A DNA stretch of 64,000 nt from Thiomicrorhabdus arctica DSM 13458. Lineage in GTDB: Bacteria > Pseudomonadota > Gammaproteobacteria > Thiomicrospirales > Thiomicrospiraceae. Below the pieces are notes generated by a model that did not search any database, was not told the origin of the DNA, and was given only the letters and a program-made list of their open reading frames with translations. Position numbers and translations under genes: made by a program. The stretch lies in NCBI RefSeq assembly GCF_000381085.1, contig NZ_KB905903.1, forward strand, positions 1-64,000, given 5' to 3'. Each line of letters opens with the position of its first letter. The first letter of the stretch is position 1. Below, piece by piece: positions 31,234-38,654 of the stretch.

Positions 31234-33180
31234 ATGACTAATCATGACTATAGTTACCCTGATCTTATAAACTTTCTAATTGGCTTGATTGGTGGTGGAC
31301 TATTACTTCTTTTTCCTCTTCAAGTGCTCTCGTCTGAAAATATTGCACCATCAGCCCCATCAGTGCTTGTAAACGCTTCCAAGTTAAAGCCGGTCAGTAT
31401 TCAGCATGATGGTAATCTTTCCATTCAGCTTGCGGACGCTTCTATAACACAAAAAAAAAGTGACTCAATTAATCGAGTTGAGTTGACAAAAAACGATACG
31501 AATGATTTTATACTTGATGCCTCTGAGGGACCGTCTTCTGTTGAAAAGCCCACCTATCTTAGAGAGCACACAGATGGAAACATTGACGACCGTATCGATT
31601 GGGCACTCGACGAAAAAAAAGATTTTCGAGGTCTCGTTTCAGCTTATTTAAGTTTAATGGGGGGTAAGGCAGGCTTTGAGTTTGTATCTGTTCTGGATTA
31701 TTCTCATCTAAAAATCCCAGCATTCGATGTTCTGGCGAGTGCTGTCGAAACCCAAACGCATAGGAATCATTTAAATTATATTCAATCCCCCCCCACTTTG
31801 CCCATGGTGTTGGCCAACGACGATGGGTTCGATTATATCGCTCTCAATGATCCATTAAATGGTCGGACGGTTGCCGTTATTGAACATACTTGGCTACAAG
31901 AAGGACTTACATCGTTTGATCCAGAGATCAATGCAGCGCCAGTCGATTCAATTACTAAAGGTTTACTTTCCATTTTAGACACTCGAACGACCGTTTATTC
32001 GAACCATTCCGTCGCACTCAATTATGCTAACAAACCAGAAGGTTTGAGTAGAGTTTGGAGTCCTGAAGCGCTAGAAAGGCGTTTTAAAGCCGCAATGGAT
32101 ATGCAAAATGAGACGCCCTATATATATTCTATACTGGAAAATACGCTTGTAAGCGTTACGGAAACGCAGCGCCAGCAGATTTATGAGAATTGGGTGCAAT
32201 TAAAAATGGTGACAAAATCGTATCGTTGGCTGTATGGCATCGCCCTTATTTTACTGGCCACATTGATTATATTACTGTTATGGATGTCATCAGTTCAGCG
32301 TTCTAAGAAAGTTTTACAGTCTTACATTGATACCGTGAACGAGTTAAGCCTCGCGACAGTGACTGACAATAAAGGTCTTCTCATCTGGGTGAGTGACAGT
32401 TTTACAAAATTAAGTGGCTATGATAAGCAAGAGTTGATTGGTCAACCCCCTAGTATCACTAAGAGCTCCGCTATGTCTGATGATGAATATAATGAAATTT
32501 ATCAGAGGGTTAAAAAGGGGGAAACTTGGCGGGGTGAAGTCGAAGGTCGCCGAAAAGATGGTTCTTTGTATTGCGTTAATTTAACCGCCATTCCTGAAAT
32601 GCGATTTGGCAAGCTTCAAAAGGTAACAGTTACACGTGAGGACTTAACGGATCGGAAAAAAGCAGAAGAGTTAAGCATTCGAGATTCATTAACAGGATTA
32701 TATAATCGACGTTACTTTACGGAGGTATTTGAACGCGAGATTAAACGAGCGCAGCGTGAAGATATGCCATTTGTATTTGCCATGGCTGATATCGATTTCT
32801 TTAAAAATTTAAATGATCATTATGGGCACCAGCAGGGGGATGTTGCCTTGCAAAAGGTTTCTAACTTGCTGCAACAGAGTTTAAGACGTCCTCAAGACTT
32901 AGTGTTTAGATTAGGAGGTGAAGAATTTGGAATGATTCTAAATGAAATTGATTTAGAGCATGTTAACGATTTTCTCAGGAACGTAAATGCGGCTATTAAA
33001 GCGTTAGGCATTCAAAACAAAGAAGGTGTTGATGGTGTCGTGACTCTTTCTTGCGGTGCGATCATATTGCCTTCTGACCATCAATTAAGCAGTGATGCGG
33101 TATTTAAATTAGCCGATGACTTGATGTATCAAGCAAAAGAGAATGGACGTAATAGAGTTGAGGTTGAGCTATTTCAATAA
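31234..33180 (+). CDS. membrane diguanylate cyclase with periplasmic SBP-3-like sensor
   Basis: A 648-residue protein with an N-terminal membrane segment (about 13-30), a periplasmic region ending in a type 3 solute-binding-like lobe (about 200-320; LNDPLNGRTVAVIEHTW, RVWSPEALERRFKAAM), a membrane helix (about 333-352), PAS (about 365-480) and GGDEF (about 485-646). The active site RLGGEEF and the RPQD inhibitory site are intact. Ligands of such sensors are often amino acids or other small molecules; the one here is unknown. The only credible -10 box almost abuts the ATG, so the transcript may be leaderless. The first periplasmic 150 residues are unassigned. Confidence 0.85.
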   Translation: MTNHDYSYPDLINFLIGLIGGGLLLLFPLQVLSSENIAPSAPSVLVNASKLKPVSIQHDGNLSIQLADASITQKKSDSINRVELTKNDTNDFILDASEGPSSVEKPTYLREHTDGNIDDRIDWALDEKKDFRGLVSAYLSLMGGKAGFEFVSVLDYSHLKIPAFDVLASAVETQTHRNHLNYIQSPPTLPMVLANDDGFDYIALNDPLNGRTVAVIEHTWLQEGLTSFDPEINAAPVDSITKGLLSILDTRTTVYSNHSVALNYANKPEGLSRVWSPEALERRFKAAMDMQNETPYIYSILENTLVSVTETQRQQIYENWVQLKMVTKSYRWLYGIALILLATLIILLLWMSSVQRSKKVLQSYIDTVNELSLATVTDNKGLLIWVSDSFTKLSGYDKQELIGQPPSITKSSAMSDDEYNEIYQRVKKGETWRGEVEGRRKDGSLYCVNLTAIPEMRFGKLQKVTVTREDLTDRKKAEELSIRDSLTGLYNRRYFTEVFEREIKRAQREDMPFVFAMADIDFFKNLNDHYGHQQGDVALQKVSNLLQQSLRRPQDLVFRLGGEEFGMILNEIDLEHVNDFLRNVNAAIKALGIQNKEGVDGVVTLSCGAIILPSDHQLSSDAVFKLADDLMYQAKENGRNRVEVELFQ

Positions 33181-33906: not shown

Positions 33907-35595
33907 TCAATTATGAATCACTGGTTTTTTAATTCCGGTTTTTTCACCAGTGGGTACGATATCCCAGCTCGTCGTAACAGGTTTTACGTGGGCATCTCGT
34001 CCATAGATATAACTTTGCTCATCAACAATGATTTTATAGGCCTTGTTGAGTCTGAGAGCTCGTTTAGCAGACGGTAGCAGTAAGTGTCCGATATCCTTGT
34101 GAAGGATTTCCACTTCGGACGGTTTTAAGCGGCCAGCTGCGTTAAAAAATTTTCCAATGACTTCCTTGTTATTGCGGAACTCATTCGCAGAGTGATTTTG
34201 GAGGAGGTATTCGGTATATTGCCAATGGCCATCGGGAAATTTAGGTTCAGGCAGACCGTTTAAATCTTTTTGAGTCCAATGAAACCAACTCGCCTGGAGT
34301 TGTTCGCTTCCCAGCTTTCTTGGGAATGCAAAACTGCTGTCCGTTGTGACACCTAAACCCGAGTGACATCCCATACAATTCAACGATTCCTCAAAACTCT
34401 GTGGCCGTAGCTGACCTTTTTGATCTTCAATAAATCCTTGATATGCCCAACCTAATCCATTGGGCATTCCAGCTTCTGGGTTACCCATCATCCGACGTAA
34501 TCGCTCTGGAAAATCATGCAGTTCTTTTTCTTCAGCCATGGCTGAATTTTGTAGTTGACCGTAGTTGTTCCAGCCTGTTTTAATGCCATAACGCAACTCT
34601 TTAAAGCGATTGGCAAGCATAGTATGACCTTGAGCATCGACATTAATATAACGGACGGAGTGTAAAAACTCAGTGCCCTCAGGGTAAAGACCTCCGGCTA
34701 GATGAAGTTTTTTTTCGGTCATTAATATTTTGGCTTTACCCACATAAGACATAAATACCCCTTCTCTAGGTGCCCAGAGATAAACTATTTTTTGGGCAAT
34801 GTCGAGTTTGCCGTTGCGATTTAAATCAACGCCATATAATCGTTCATCGGTGGCTGGAATAGGAATGTCTATGCGTTGGATAAGCGCTTGCACGATGGCT
34901 AAGTTTATTTTATAAATGCCCAAATCCATCTTGCCATTTTCATCTTGTCGAAAAGGGGGGGCCAAACGAATGATGACATCATTTGTGCTGCCATTGGTGG
35001 GCCAAAAGGTACCCAGGAAGGGAGCATAAGCAAAAGCTCTCCAGCCAGAAATCTCTCCATTTGGTTTCCTGTCAAAACCTTCTTTATCAAAGTGATAGTA
35101 GCAATCCGGTGTAAAACCATTCCATTTTCCATCGCCATTAACATCCCACTCAGCAGGGAGTTCAGCCATTTTTTTGGCCAGAATGATCTGACCTTGCTCG
35201 TCAAAATAATTTGATTGACGTATGTACTTCAATATAGCTTGATCGGTTATTTTGGCAACTTGTTCAGTTCGGTCTTTAAAAAGATTACTCCATGGGTTTT
35301 TCCGGGTTGCTTCTTTAAATTCATACGCAAGCTGAAGGCTACTGTCATCAATATAATTTGGCGCTATGGGGGCGGTATGACAACTAAAGCACGGGTTATG
35401 TATCTGCCCATTCTCACTTTTGGTTTTGGTATAACATTGAGCGGGAATATAAGCTCCATTCGTATTCACTATTCGGTTGTTCAGTAGCGATATATCAGTA
35501 TGCTGTGATTCTGAGCAGCCCGTTAAAATTACGCTGATAAAAATAAATATCATCCTTAGGGGCATCGTTCTCGCTTTACTAAATGTTTTCAACAT
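33907..35595 (-). CDS. diheme c-type cytochrome-like lipoprotein
   Basis: A 562-residue exported protein with a lipobox ILTGC near residue 27. Two heme-attachment motifs are visible, CFSCH (about 69-73) and CMGCH (about 408-412), so it should carry two covalent c-type hemes outside the cytoplasmic membrane. Two calcium-like loops also appear, DVNGDGKWNG and DLNRNGKLDI. The large body has no family I can name. It lies 170 bases downstream of the PhoX-like lipoprotein gene but behind a terminator, so linkage may be functional rather than strictly operonic. Electron partners and substrate are unknown. The first Met is followed by other possible starts at residues 11 and 15. Confidence 0.75.
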   Translation of the reverse strand: MLKTFSKARTMPLRMIFIFISVILTGCSESQHTDISLLNNRIVNTNGAYIPAQCYTKTKSENGQIHNPCFSCHTAPIAPNYIDDSSLQLAYEFKEATRKNPWSNLFKDRTEQVAKITDQAILKYIRQSNYFDEQGQIILAKKMAELPAEWDVNGDGKWNGFTPDCYYHFDKEGFDRKPNGEISGWRAFAYAPFLGTFWPTNGSTNDVIIRLAPPFRQDENGKMDLGIYKINLAIVQALIQRIDIPIPATDERLYGVDLNRNGKLDIAQKIVYLWAPREGVFMSYVGKAKILMTEKKLHLAGGLYPEGTEFLHSVRYINVDAQGHTMLANRFKELRYGIKTGWNNYGQLQNSAMAEEKELHDFPERLRRMMGNPEAGMPNGLGWAYQGFIEDQKGQLRPQSFEESLNCMGCHSGLGVTTDSSFAFPRKLGSEQLQASWFHWTQKDLNGLPEPKFPDGHWQYTEYLLQNHSANEFRNNKEVIGKFFNAAGRLKPSEVEILHKDIGHLLLPSAKRALRLNKAYKIIVDEQSYIYGRDAHVKPVTTSWDIVPTGEKTGIKKPVIHN

Positions 35596-35691
35596 TTGAA
35601 TTTTTTCCCTCTGGTTATCATGAAAGTGTTTAAAACAGTAAGTGATCGTAAACCTAACGTGTTAAATAGCGTTTTATCAATATGCTAGGTA

Positions 35692-35731
35692 ATAAAAAAG
35701 CCTTGATCACAAGAATCAAGGCTTTATATTG
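35692..35731 (-). terminator. terminator after the PhoX-like gene
   Basis: AAAGCCTTGAT pairs with ATCAAGGCTTT around a short loop, with an A run on the plus strand (T run on the minus strand) immediately after, matching termination of the minus-strand PhoX-like gene. Confidence 0.85.
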
Positions 35732-35765
35732 CAAAAGAGAGTTACCTCACTTTTTTGCTTGTTGG

Positions 35766-37604
35766 TTATTTCATCTGAGAGAAATCAAACGGACCGATAT
35801 AACCCGCTTCTGTCATCATTTCTACACCTGTTGGAACAACATACCCCACAGAGACTTCCCCAAATGGATGTTGAGTCGTCGCCGTTAAGTAGCCTTTGCC
35901 ATTGATGTTTTTATGCCAAAATGGAGATGTCGTTTCAGCGCCATAAGGCACCGTCAAGATGCGATCCATCCTGCCATTTTTAATGTTATACGCCCAAATC
36001 ATATCATTTGGATGTGCACTGGTATCTTCACCAATCACTAAAATGTCAGAGCCTTCTAAAAAGGTGAGGTTATCAGGACTTGCAATGCCATCTATATCAC
36101 AAGTATTGCCTTCAAGAGCCGTTCCAGTATAGTCAACAGCCTTTCCAGCAACCAAGCCTTTCATGCTATAAGCTACATAATCAGAGCCCATGGTTTTATT
36201 TGTGGCAACATCTAATGCATAGACGGCGCCACAACCGTTGTTGGCAACTTGAATGTCACCGATGGTATCCTTCATTAGGCTGCCCACATTTGACATGGAA
36301 ACATACAATTTTCGATCACGTGGATTAAAGGTGATGCCTTCTTCTTTTTTGAACTCTGTGGTTGCACCTTGCATGGCTGCCATGCGTCGTGTTTCAAACC
36401 GAGCGGCTATGGCAATATCAAGAGCGTCAACCGTTGTATCACCATTAATATCTTGTAATGCTAAGCACTCCTCACCTGTTGCCGTATTAATATAGGTATA
36501 GGTTGCTGGAGTCGGACATGCACCAGCTGCCGGCGTTTCTGTCGTAAAGATATTCGCAAAAGTAATTGCATCTGTTCCCGTTGCCACATTATTATCTGTG
36601 TTTAAGTAGCCTTTGATCCCGACATCAGTCGAATGGCCTAAATCAATCCAAGAAAGTACGGCTTCTCCTGTGCCAACTCCAGGAAGAGAGGTTTGTGTCC
36701 ATTTAGCGGCATAAAGTGTCCCTGCGCTTAGATTCTCTGCAACGTCTGCGATATACATAAATAGACCCACATTTGTACCATCATCTGACAGATACACCGT
36801 TTTATGGTCAGGCATTACATACGATAATTCATGTGCAAAACGACCCATGCTGTAGTGTTTCGTATAATTAGGTGTCCCATCCGTGTTGATCTTTACTTCA
36901 GGTGTCCAGCCATAGTAGTAAGGACTGTTTCTAGTCGCATCGCCACCCCAGAAGTTATTCGTCACTGAATCCCAGTAACTCCCACTAGGAGCGGCCGCAT
37001 TGGGTTCATATTCTTCAGAACCTAAATGCGAATTCCAAGGTGTCGTCATTCCTGCGCAATGTACCCAACCACCAAACTCTTCTTTTTGGCTTACATATTG
37101 TAAAGTGTTTGCTTTGACACTTAACTTACCGTCTGCAGCTTGTTCTATTTCGCTCATATAGATGGCGCCAGGAGCACATTCGAACTGAGAAACCATGTAA
37201 ACGTTACCGTTTTTTTGTAAAAATGAGAAGTGATCCAGACCAGACCCTTTCGCACCTACTGTGCCACCGCCATTACAAAGCATAGGTGTCGCGTCGACAT
37301 TTGTGATGATGGCATCTGTAAAATCTTTAACCACACCAAAGGTTTCACCATTATTGGTATCCCCTGTTTTCATCAGGGTGTTATAGGCAATCGCTTGTTT
37401 TTGGCCGGCAATGGTGACTTCATTCGTGGCACGAATGGTATTTTTTTCGTTTGTTGTAATGGCGGGAGCAATCGATTTGAATTCAACATCGGTTGAGAAT
37501 ATGCTGCCATTACTACCGTTACTGCCATCTTTACCAGCACAGCCAGTAAGCATTAAAGCTGAAACTGTTAATGCTAATGGCATCGTTAGGTTCATAGTTT
37601 TCAT
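35766..37604 (-). CDS. PhoX-like (DUF839) lipoprotein with a dockerin-like calcium loop
   Basis: The 612-residue protein has a lipobox LTGC and a Gly/Ser/Asn linker, then a PhoX-type beta-propeller. Family strings include GLDHFSFLQKNGNVYMVSQ, VHCAGMTTPWNSHLGSEEY (with the Cys and Glu of the PhoX Fe/Ca centre), and VYLSDDGTNVGLFMYIAD. PhoX enzymes are calcium- and iron-dependent alkaline phosphatases; this one could instead be a non-phosphatase family member. Unusual is LQDINGDTTVDALDIAIAAR near residue 385-404, an EF-hand or dockerin-like loop with D, N, D, T, D, D at positions 1, 3, 5, 7, 9, 12, flanked by a Cys pair. It neighbours a diheme lipoprotein gene. Confidence 0.82.
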   Translation of the reverse strand: MKTMNLTMPLALTVSALMLTGCAGKDGSNGSNGSIFSTDVEFKSIAPAITTNEKNTIRATNEVTIAGQKQAIAYNTLMKTGDTNNGETFGVVKDFTDAIITNVDATPMLCNGGGTVGAKGSGLDHFSFLQKNGNVYMVSQFECAPGAIYMSEIEQAADGKLSVKANTLQYVSQKEEFGGWVHCAGMTTPWNSHLGSEEYEPNAAAPSGSYWDSVTNNFWGGDATRNSPYYYGWTPEVKINTDGTPNYTKHYSMGRFAHELSYVMPDHKTVYLSDDGTNVGLFMYIADVAENLSAGTLYAAKWTQTSLPGVGTGEAVLSWIDLGHSTDVGIKGYLNTDNNVATGTDAITFANIFTTETPAAGACPTPATYTYINTATGEECLALQDINGDTTVDALDIAIAARFETRRMAAMQGATTEFKKEEGITFNPRDRKLYVSMSNVGSLMKDTIGDIQVANNGCGAVYALDVATNKTMGSDYVAYSMKGLVAGKAVDYTGTALEGNTCDIDGIASPDNLTFLEGSDILVIGEDTSAHPNDMIWAYNIKNGRMDRILTVPYGAETTSPFWHKNINGKGYLTATTQHPFGEVSVGYVVPTGVEMMTEAGYIGPFDFSQMK

Positions 37605-37907
37605 TTTCAGGATTCCTATTTTAGAGAGTGAATAGAGCTATGCTTGGAGAGTTAATAATAAAAAATGCTTATTTCAGGCAGGTTTAAGTTTAGTGACAAG
37701 TTGATGGTGGGAATATTACGAATGTATGATGCTTGTATGACTGCCCAGTGACCGACATTGATAGACTTAATTTCTTGTGGAAAGTTGTTTTAATCAGAAG
37801 GGATTCAGGTAGTGGAATATAGAAATGTATGCCCACGAATATGGGTTCATGAGCGTTAAATCAATAAACTTTATTTGCAGTGCGAGCAAAATAATTCAAT
37901 TTTAAGG
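37605..37907. other. 303-base gap, nothing recognised
   Basis: AT-rich spacer between the DUF1461 gene and the PhoX-like gene on the minus strand. It presumably holds the PhoX-like promoter, but I cannot point to a convincing hexamer pair or a Pho box. Confidence 0.4.
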
Positions 37908-38654
37908 TCATGAATTAATCTTACTTAGATGAATGCGATTTAGGGCATGGAACAGTTTAACGATGAGGATGAAGAGCAGTATGCCTAAAACAAGTAGGCT
38001 GATGCTAATATAGGCAAATAGGTCAGGCGCTTTCATCATCGTACTCATCAGTGAGTCTTGGTAGTAAAAAAACCAATGATGATCTGCCGGAAATACCCAT
38101 ATATGCAGTTGGTAAAAAACCTTCTGGGCTCCAAATATGGCAATGGGTATCGCCAAAATAAACAAACTGAATGTTACATTCAGTAAACCTTTTTGTGGCG
38201 ATGGAAAAGGTTGGCGTGATCTGAGCCGGTAAATACTCAGAGCCCCCCATATGAACAATACCCCCCAGCCCAATTTTTTTAAGAGCTCAATGAGCTTTGC
38301 AACATCGGTTAAATGGACAATTTCTGCAGAGTGTAATAACGGAATATCAATGGTTTTAGTTCTGTCTTGGTACGTTAAGCTTTGTAAACCATGGCCTTGG
38401 TGATGAATTGCTTTAACGATTCCGGCAAATAGCGCTTTACGGGTTTGGGCATCGGTCGTCTCAAAGTCATGACGAAAACGATTTTTGGGAGCATAGTGGT
38501 CAATGTGTTCACTTATACCTGCATAGTCGTACCAAAAGCCATACAAAAAGTTGGCCTTAGCAAGGACTATCCAGCTTAAATACAAGGACAGTATGAGTGT
38601 CAACCAGATCCATAGGAACTGCTTCAATGGTAATAAAAAAATGAAGCGTCTCAA
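37908..38654 (-). CDS. DUF1461 family integral membrane protein
   Basis: A 248-residue protein with about four membrane helices (near 10-32, 125-140, 158-178, 215-238) and the family string FYQLHIWVFPADHHWFFYYQ followed by DSLMSTMM. Function unknown. The start is a TTG (38654), with no other start codon close by and no Shine-Dalgarno sequence. An exact iterated palindrome begins four bases upstream, and the reading frame stays open through it, so the true start could lie further upstream and the palindrome could be translated. radC lies 91 bases upstream on the same strand. Confidence 0.72.
   Translation of the reverse strand: MRRFIFLLPLKQFLWIWLTLILSLYLSWIVLAKANFLYGFWYDYAGISEHIDHYAPKNRFRHDFETTDAQTRKALFAGIVKAIHHQGHGLQSLTYQDRTKTIDIPLLHSAEIVHLTDVAKLIELLKKLGWGVLFIWGALSIYRLRSRQPFPSPQKGLLNVTFSLFILAIPIAIFGAQKVFYQLHIWVFPADHHWFFYYQDSLMSTMMKAPDLFAYISISLLVLGILLFILIVKLFHALNRIHLSKINS

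Follow-up and report, generated by a model that had tools for sequence, protein, structure and literature searches.

A recurring pair of genes for a PhoX-type lipoprotein and a diheme lipoprotein in Thiomicrorhabdus arctica, with PhoB-box-like repeats upstream

PhoX ranks among the main phosphatases of bacteria and, to our knowledge, the assembly of its Fe3+/Ca2+ centre is an open question. Known PhoX and PhoD proteins use the twin-arginine translocation (Tat) pathway, which has been argued to be a way of inserting iron before export (PMC4223295, in the portion accessible). In the active phosphatase Psip1 of picocyanobacteria, Lys replaces PhoX Arg385; the accessible sections of the source describe Psip1 as lacking both overall sequence identity with PhoX and a counterpart of D292 (PMC11098088). 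Here, we analysed 64,000 nucleotides of Thiomicrorhabdus arctica DSM 13458 (assembly GCF_000381085.1, contig NZ_KB905903.1, positions 1 to 64,000 of the forward strand; hereafter the window), in which the gene c1, encoding a PhoX-like lipoprotein, is followed by c0, encoding a diheme lipoprotein of an uncharacterised family. No title or abstract on a gene pair of PhoX/DUF839 with a cytochrome, P460 or diheme protein was found in a search whose scope left most subscription journals outside.

Both open reading frames (ORFs) of the first-pass annotation were found on the minus strand of the window. The c1 ORF occupies 35766-37604 (612 aa) and is read before the c0 ORF at 33907-35595 (562 aa), with a gap of 170 bases between them. 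Direct reading confirmed that both products are predicted lipoproteins, with signals of the general secretory (Sec) type that end in a lipobox (ILTG/C and LTG/C).

Among 58 relatives, c0 was present in 24 and c1 in 24, and these were the same 24 genomes. In 22/24 of them, counting one locus where c0 is split into two frames (L071), c1 immediately precedes c0 in the same orientation; in the exceptions, the genes are about 8 kb apart (G032) or on separate contigs (G049). The neighbourhood survey proposed by the first-pass annotation thus returned a recurring arrangement. We also searched a class sample of 369 genomes, in which c0 was found in 19 and the c1 profile gave a match in 72; 16 genomes had both (hypergeometric test, 6e-10). 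Fifteen of the class-sample c0 genomes lie outside the relatives set, and in 11 of these c1 is the next gene upstream of c0. The two genes stand at facing contig ends in G198, and PhoX is directly downstream of c0 in G285; the class-sample scans found no c1 partner in G124, where c0 is at a contig start, or in G303. Positions of the pair in G181 (L119) and of c0 in G124 (L116) were taken from these scans, the greedy ORF caller having missed them.

A Desulfocapsa metagenome-assembled genome carries the pair as well. A scan of 72,556 plasmid records gave c0 in 3, all from Pseudoalteromonas, and c1 was directly upstream in both that were examined; an annotated Pseudoalteromonas record labels c1 'alkaline phosphatase PhoX' and c0 'hypothetical protein'. 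Scanning the viral_contigs set with both alignments gave no relative. Four loci carry one c0 beside two tandem c1 genes (L062, L063, L064, L077). Second copies of c0 apart from c1 were seen twice: the one in G207 is preceded by a gene without a Pfam match, and the one in G062 (L114, 3233-4864) by a gene with a match to Porin_O_P (phosphate-selective porin O/P).

Over 22 paired loci, pairwise distances for c1 correlated strongly with those for c0 (0.904). The partial correlation was 0.91-0.94 when one of four neighbour genes was held fixed at a time (15-16 loci each), and the neighbour genes, labelled MutM, RadC, L28 and thioesterase by sequence reading, gave correlations of 0.08-0.49 with c1 and c0. 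The locus with the split c0 (L071) was excluded from the c0 alignment (A2) and from this comparison. The two genes move as one unit, and these observations strongly indicate that c0 is a conserved, co-inherited downstream partner of c1.

The c1 product matched the PhoX family PF05787 with an E value of 1.3e-21 (77.8 bits, cut-off 24), as did all 32 of its 32 relatives at E<=0.1. A profile built from these 32 relatives (alignment A1) found the PhoX crystal structures 3zwu and 4amf of Pseudomonas fluorescens with an E value of 1.3e-77, and the single c1 sequence gave chance-level matches in the PDB (E 0.13 or worse). Two of the 32 rows in A1 are canonical Tat-type PhoX proteins (from L067 and L076), which help A1 to reach 3zwu and, class-wide, ordinary PhoX. 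In a HMMER alignment, PhoX C179, E193, E194, E273, D292, E387 and D479 correspond to C183, E197, E198, E259, D275, E422 and D511 of c1; we take C179, E193, E194, E273, E387 and D479 to be metal-site residues of PhoX. Each of the seven positions was conserved in 41/41 c1 proteins from pair-bearing loci, a count that leaves out L126_6 and L135_0. PhoX R385 corresponds to K420 of c1, and Lys was found here in 41/41 of the same proteins, with Arg in both canonical PhoX proteins of L067 and L076. The numbering reproduces R385 and D292, PhoX positions named in the accessible part of PMC11098088.

These data strongly indicate that c1 encodes a PhoX-type protein that has kept the Fe/Ca ligands and is predicted to be exported and lipid-anchored. 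It resembles P. fluorescens PhoX in its profile match, its metal-ligand residues and its PhoB-box-like control. Unlike that enzyme, it is a Sec lipoprotein instead of a Tat substrate, has Lys for R385, carries a cysteine-flanked insertion (with an EF-hand-type loop in about half of its subfamily) and has a diheme partner gene downstream. The Tat signal typical of characterised PhoX, which we did not treat as a defining feature, is lacking in c1. No clear twin-arginine motif was seen in the c1 proteins at c0 loci, with a doubtful RR in L080 and L117 and the canonical PhoX of L067 and L076 set apart. Compared with Psip1 as described in the accessible text of PMC11098088, c1 is alike in the Lys at the Arg385 position and unlike in keeping D292 and in being a PhoX homologue by sequence.

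In two loci, a canonical Tat-type PhoX with an SRRDFF signal lies upstream of c1 on the opposite strand (L067, 1177-3105, minus; L076, 4715-6646, minus), adjoining c1 in L076 and separated from it by about 4 kb in L067. In G274, a PhoX-like domain is found within an open frame of more than 2600 residues (L126, from 5072).

Upstream of c1 in the window, we found a PhoB-box-like array of four half-sites with an 11-bp period (37714-37753, minus strand). Scoring relied on half-site preferences that we took to be those of PhoB. When three half-sites were scored, an equally high value was reached by 0.5% of stretches of this size in the window. Across the family, the best two-half-site score had a median of 10.5 upstream of 37 c1 genes and 5.1 in 281 other upstreams drawn from the same loci (Mann-Whitney p 1.4e-12). 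The 37 came from 39 listed c1 starts, because upstream DNA was shorter than 230 bases for the first copy in L063 and for L080. The case list did not include the c1 genes of L112, L117, L122 and L130 or those of c0-less genomes, and these could have been counted among the controls.

The area under the curve (AUC) was 0.853 at period 11, compared with 0.63-0.76 at nine other periods and 0.60 for a reversed half-site. None of 150 column-permuted half-sites performed as well as the real one (best 0.797), and the AUC was 0.863 on 16 sequences from thinned, more diverse loci. As a positive control, the best PstS match of the source genome has a clear array, TGTCACATACTTGTCATATTTCTGTCAAC, upstream. 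An unweighted scan gave weak results locus by locus. Taken together, this enrichment strongly indicates that the c1 promoter carries PhoB-box-like repeats, candidate sites for phosphate control.

Between c1 and c0 in the window lies an intrinsic-terminator-like hairpin with a 12-bp stem and a T run (35697-35725, minus strand). Terminator-like hairpins were detected in 26/34 pair gaps and in 17/190 other codirectional gaps (Fisher p 5e-16), with 0.5 expected from shuffled sequences. This comparison excludes the first pair of L079, G181, G382 and contig-split pairs. Of the eight gaps without a detected hairpin, at least two (L065, L066) contain a comparable palindrome on visual inspection. The simplest reading of the hairpin is that c0 is produced in smaller amounts than c1 or from its own promoter, and c0 is probably the less abundant product. 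Past the terminator, the gaps of L063, L069, L074, L077 and L082 contain long AT-rich inverted repeats with arms of about 18-23 bp, whose sequence varies among genomes.

The two CxxCH heme sites reported for c0 by the first-pass annotation are present and invariant in 42/42 relatives. The first, CFSCH, covers residues 69-73 (35377-35391, minus strand), and the second, CMGCH, covers residues 407-411 within a P460-like stretch (34363-34377, minus strand). A third cysteine (C54), H312 and K339 are also invariant in all 42. No curated family matched c0 at its cut-off, the best being Cytochrome_P460 with 23.7 bits against 27. The P460 family (PF16694) was matched by 23/25 c0 relatives at E<=0.01. 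Instead of a whole-domain match, the best Pfam stretch in c0 covers residues 357-412 and profile positions 63-115 only, and hhalign gave a probability of 72-81% over the C-terminal 41-44 columns.

The c0 protein resembles the P460/cytochrome c'-beta superfamily in its C-terminal GW...CxxCH stretch, but it contains two hemes and some 530 residues beyond the signal, and it scores below the curated cut-off. H312 lies in a PxGTxxxH motif that is reminiscent of the P460 motif PDGxxxxK, a resemblance unconfirmed by alignment: in four hhalign tries, the C-terminal 41-44 columns alone were confidently aligned. The heme-lysine cross-link residue of P460 is Lys70 in NeP460, and neither 'diheme' nor 'bis-His' appears in the main text of the review, the part of it accessible here (PMC11928373). 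We found no match of c0 to CCP/MauG diheme peroxidase families in Pfam or NCBIfam up to E 1. Searching the PDB with c0, as a single sequence or as a profile, gave no hit. The Desulfocapsa c0 (L061, 5617-8703) is extended by a PD40 beta-propeller carrying a third CxxCH. The source genome also encodes an ordinary single-domain protein matching cytochrome P460 with 125 bits (G000:C1:1764692-1765072).

The first-pass annotation had also listed calcium-like loops in both proteins, and both are present. In c0, the loop DVNGDGKWNG lies at 35116-35145 (minus strand), and we found another, DLNRNGKLD, at 34801-34827 (minus strand), which was absent from that list. Neither is universal in the family, the patterns being present in 13/42 and 20/42 relatives, respectively. 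The c1 loop, DINGDTTVDALD, is a single EF-type calcium loop at residues 385-396 (36417-36452, minus strand), forming a 9-residue insertion. It had been described as a cysteine-flanked EF-hand or dockerin-type insertion; the EF-type loop and the flanking cysteines stood up to analysis, but the dockerin assignment did not.

The profile search against Dockerin_1 (PF00404) that had been suggested as a check gave 15.4 bits (cut-off 22.9) over one 16-residue stretch. The c1 loop shares with dockerin type I one DxNGDxxVxxxD calcium loop, whereas a dockerin is a stand-alone domain of two repeats and the c1 stretch is single and lies inside the PhoX domain. We rejected the dockerin identity on the grounds of this one sub-cut-off stretch in place of two repeats, found in only about half of the subfamily. 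Among 30 sequences with a readable segment between ECL and the next helix, 15 have an 18-residue segment that includes an EF-type loop, 14 have a 9-residue segment and one has a 10-residue segment; a script counted 14 of the loops, and the fifteenth, DINKDGAVNAAD of L082, was recognised by eye. The loop is a 9-residue lengthening of a segment present throughout the c1 subfamily. The flanking cysteines, C363 and C380, are seen whether or not the loop is there and are kept in 31/41 c1 proteins from pair-bearing loci. Judged by these alignments, the loop is a small insertion in part of the subfamily and is not common to all DUF839 proteins.

Two neighbouring genes were recorded. Directly upstream of c1, the gene at 37908-38654 (minus strand) matches Lit, the lipoprotein intramolecular transacylase (PF07314, E 4.9e-6), and a homologue was found near c1 at 6/26 loci examined. 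Such a gene beside a lipoprotein pair is unexpected for a Gram-negative organism. A GGDEF/PAS protein is encoded close to the pair (31234-33180, plus strand), with homologues at 13/26 loci examined.

We lean towards the reading that the pair is a phosphate-starvation module, in which c1 would act as a surface phosphomonoesterase and c0 as a sub-stoichiometric redox accessory. The c1 protein would hydrolyse phosphomonoesters at the outer membrane. Taken alone, the accessory role of c0 is a tentative suggestion. The idea of a functional pair is favoured by the recurring neighbourhood, the co-evolution and the phosphate context. Regarding the 'surface redox or phosphatase unit' of the first-pass annotation, the regulatory evidence speaks for the phosphatase side, and the two heme motifs are the sole basis for the redox role.

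The Sec export of c1, the single c0 beside tandem c1 genes and the hairpin before c0 together suggest a maturation role for c0. If c1 is exported unfolded via Sec, its two irons must be loaded and oxidised outside the cytoplasm. The c0 hemes could take electrons as Fe(II) oxidises to form the Fe(III)-oxo-Ca centre; alternatively, they could reactivate this centre or keep it oxidised. The c0 protein would be made at low abundance behind the terminator-like hairpin. A more general and rather doubtful proposal is that one branch of PhoX phosphatases, exported unfolded, depends on its own diheme cytochrome for building or reactivating the centre outside the cytoplasm.

Several observations weigh against the proposed module. 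The Cys-bound iron of PhoX has been described as redox-inactive (PMC4223295, in the portion accessible). Sec-type c1 occurs without c0 in several genomes (L133, L134, L135, L137), so c0 is not required by all. The relatives are not independent, and our p-values overstate the significance. Relative to control upstreams, the window array reaches only the 94.3rd to 97.5th percentile, and a single half-site alone reached an AUC of 0.818, so part of the signal lies in single sites. Upstreams of c0 showed no Pho-box enrichment (AUC 0.488, 26 vs 125); together with the hairpin before c0, this leaves Pho control of c0 unproven. Structure predictions of c1 and c0, made from two-row alignments of the window and Desulfocapsa (L061) proteins, had predicted local distance difference test (pLDDT) values of 28 and 33 and were unusable, so no fold search followed. 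We discarded two further ideas: that c0 has its own Pho box, by the same AUC of 0.488, and that Sec export of PhoX is always paired with c0, by the genomes with Sec-type c1 and no c0.

Other explanations of the pair were considered. As a two-heme lipoprotein encoded beside phosphate genes, c0 might instead be a reductase at the cell surface that releases phosphate from ferric minerals in phosphate starvation while PhoX obtains it from esters, the two sharing regulation and no reaction. In another marine bacterium, phosphate limitation does lead to the dissolution of iron, in that case via chelators (PMC5348524, as far as its accessible text goes). However, the recurring neighbours, few of which were identified by family search, include no evident conduit for electrons to the outer membrane, and such tight co-evolution with one PhoX clade is not expected from shared regulation alone. 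We regard this reductase as unlikely. Co-evolution and pairing conserved across families also speak against c0 being a P460 or c'-beta type protein for gases or nitrogen oxides, with no reaction in common with PhoX and a merely historical linkage. The P460-like match in 23/25 c0 relatives and the profile-profile probability of 72-81% over 41-44 columns favour such a protein, but the match is limited to the C-terminal stretch and the cross-link lysine is demonstrated in no c0 member; we give this possibility little credence.

A comparably low probability attaches to the proposal that c1 is a PhoX-fold oxidoreductase, no longer a phosphatase, which passes electrons to c0, for example while oxidising a reduced phosphorus compound. 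Such a reaction would fit the many genomes in which c1 is paired with a diheme protein, and also the change of R385 to Lys in 41/41 proteins. Yet every mapped metal ligand is retained in c1, close c1 relatives without c0 exist, and the phosphatase Psip1 has Lys at this position too (PMC11098088, accessible part).

We return to the reading of the pair as a phosphatase with a redox accessory. The co-evolving, unannotated c0 is a testable candidate for an accessory factor of PhoX or for a new phosphate-starvation cytochrome, and either outcome would link iron redox chemistry with phosphorus scavenging. If c0 is indeed a maturation factor for a PhoX, it would couple the acquisition of phosphate to redox conditions at the cell surface. 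The wide conservation of the pair suggests that some PhoX-type phosphatases work with a cytochrome helper.

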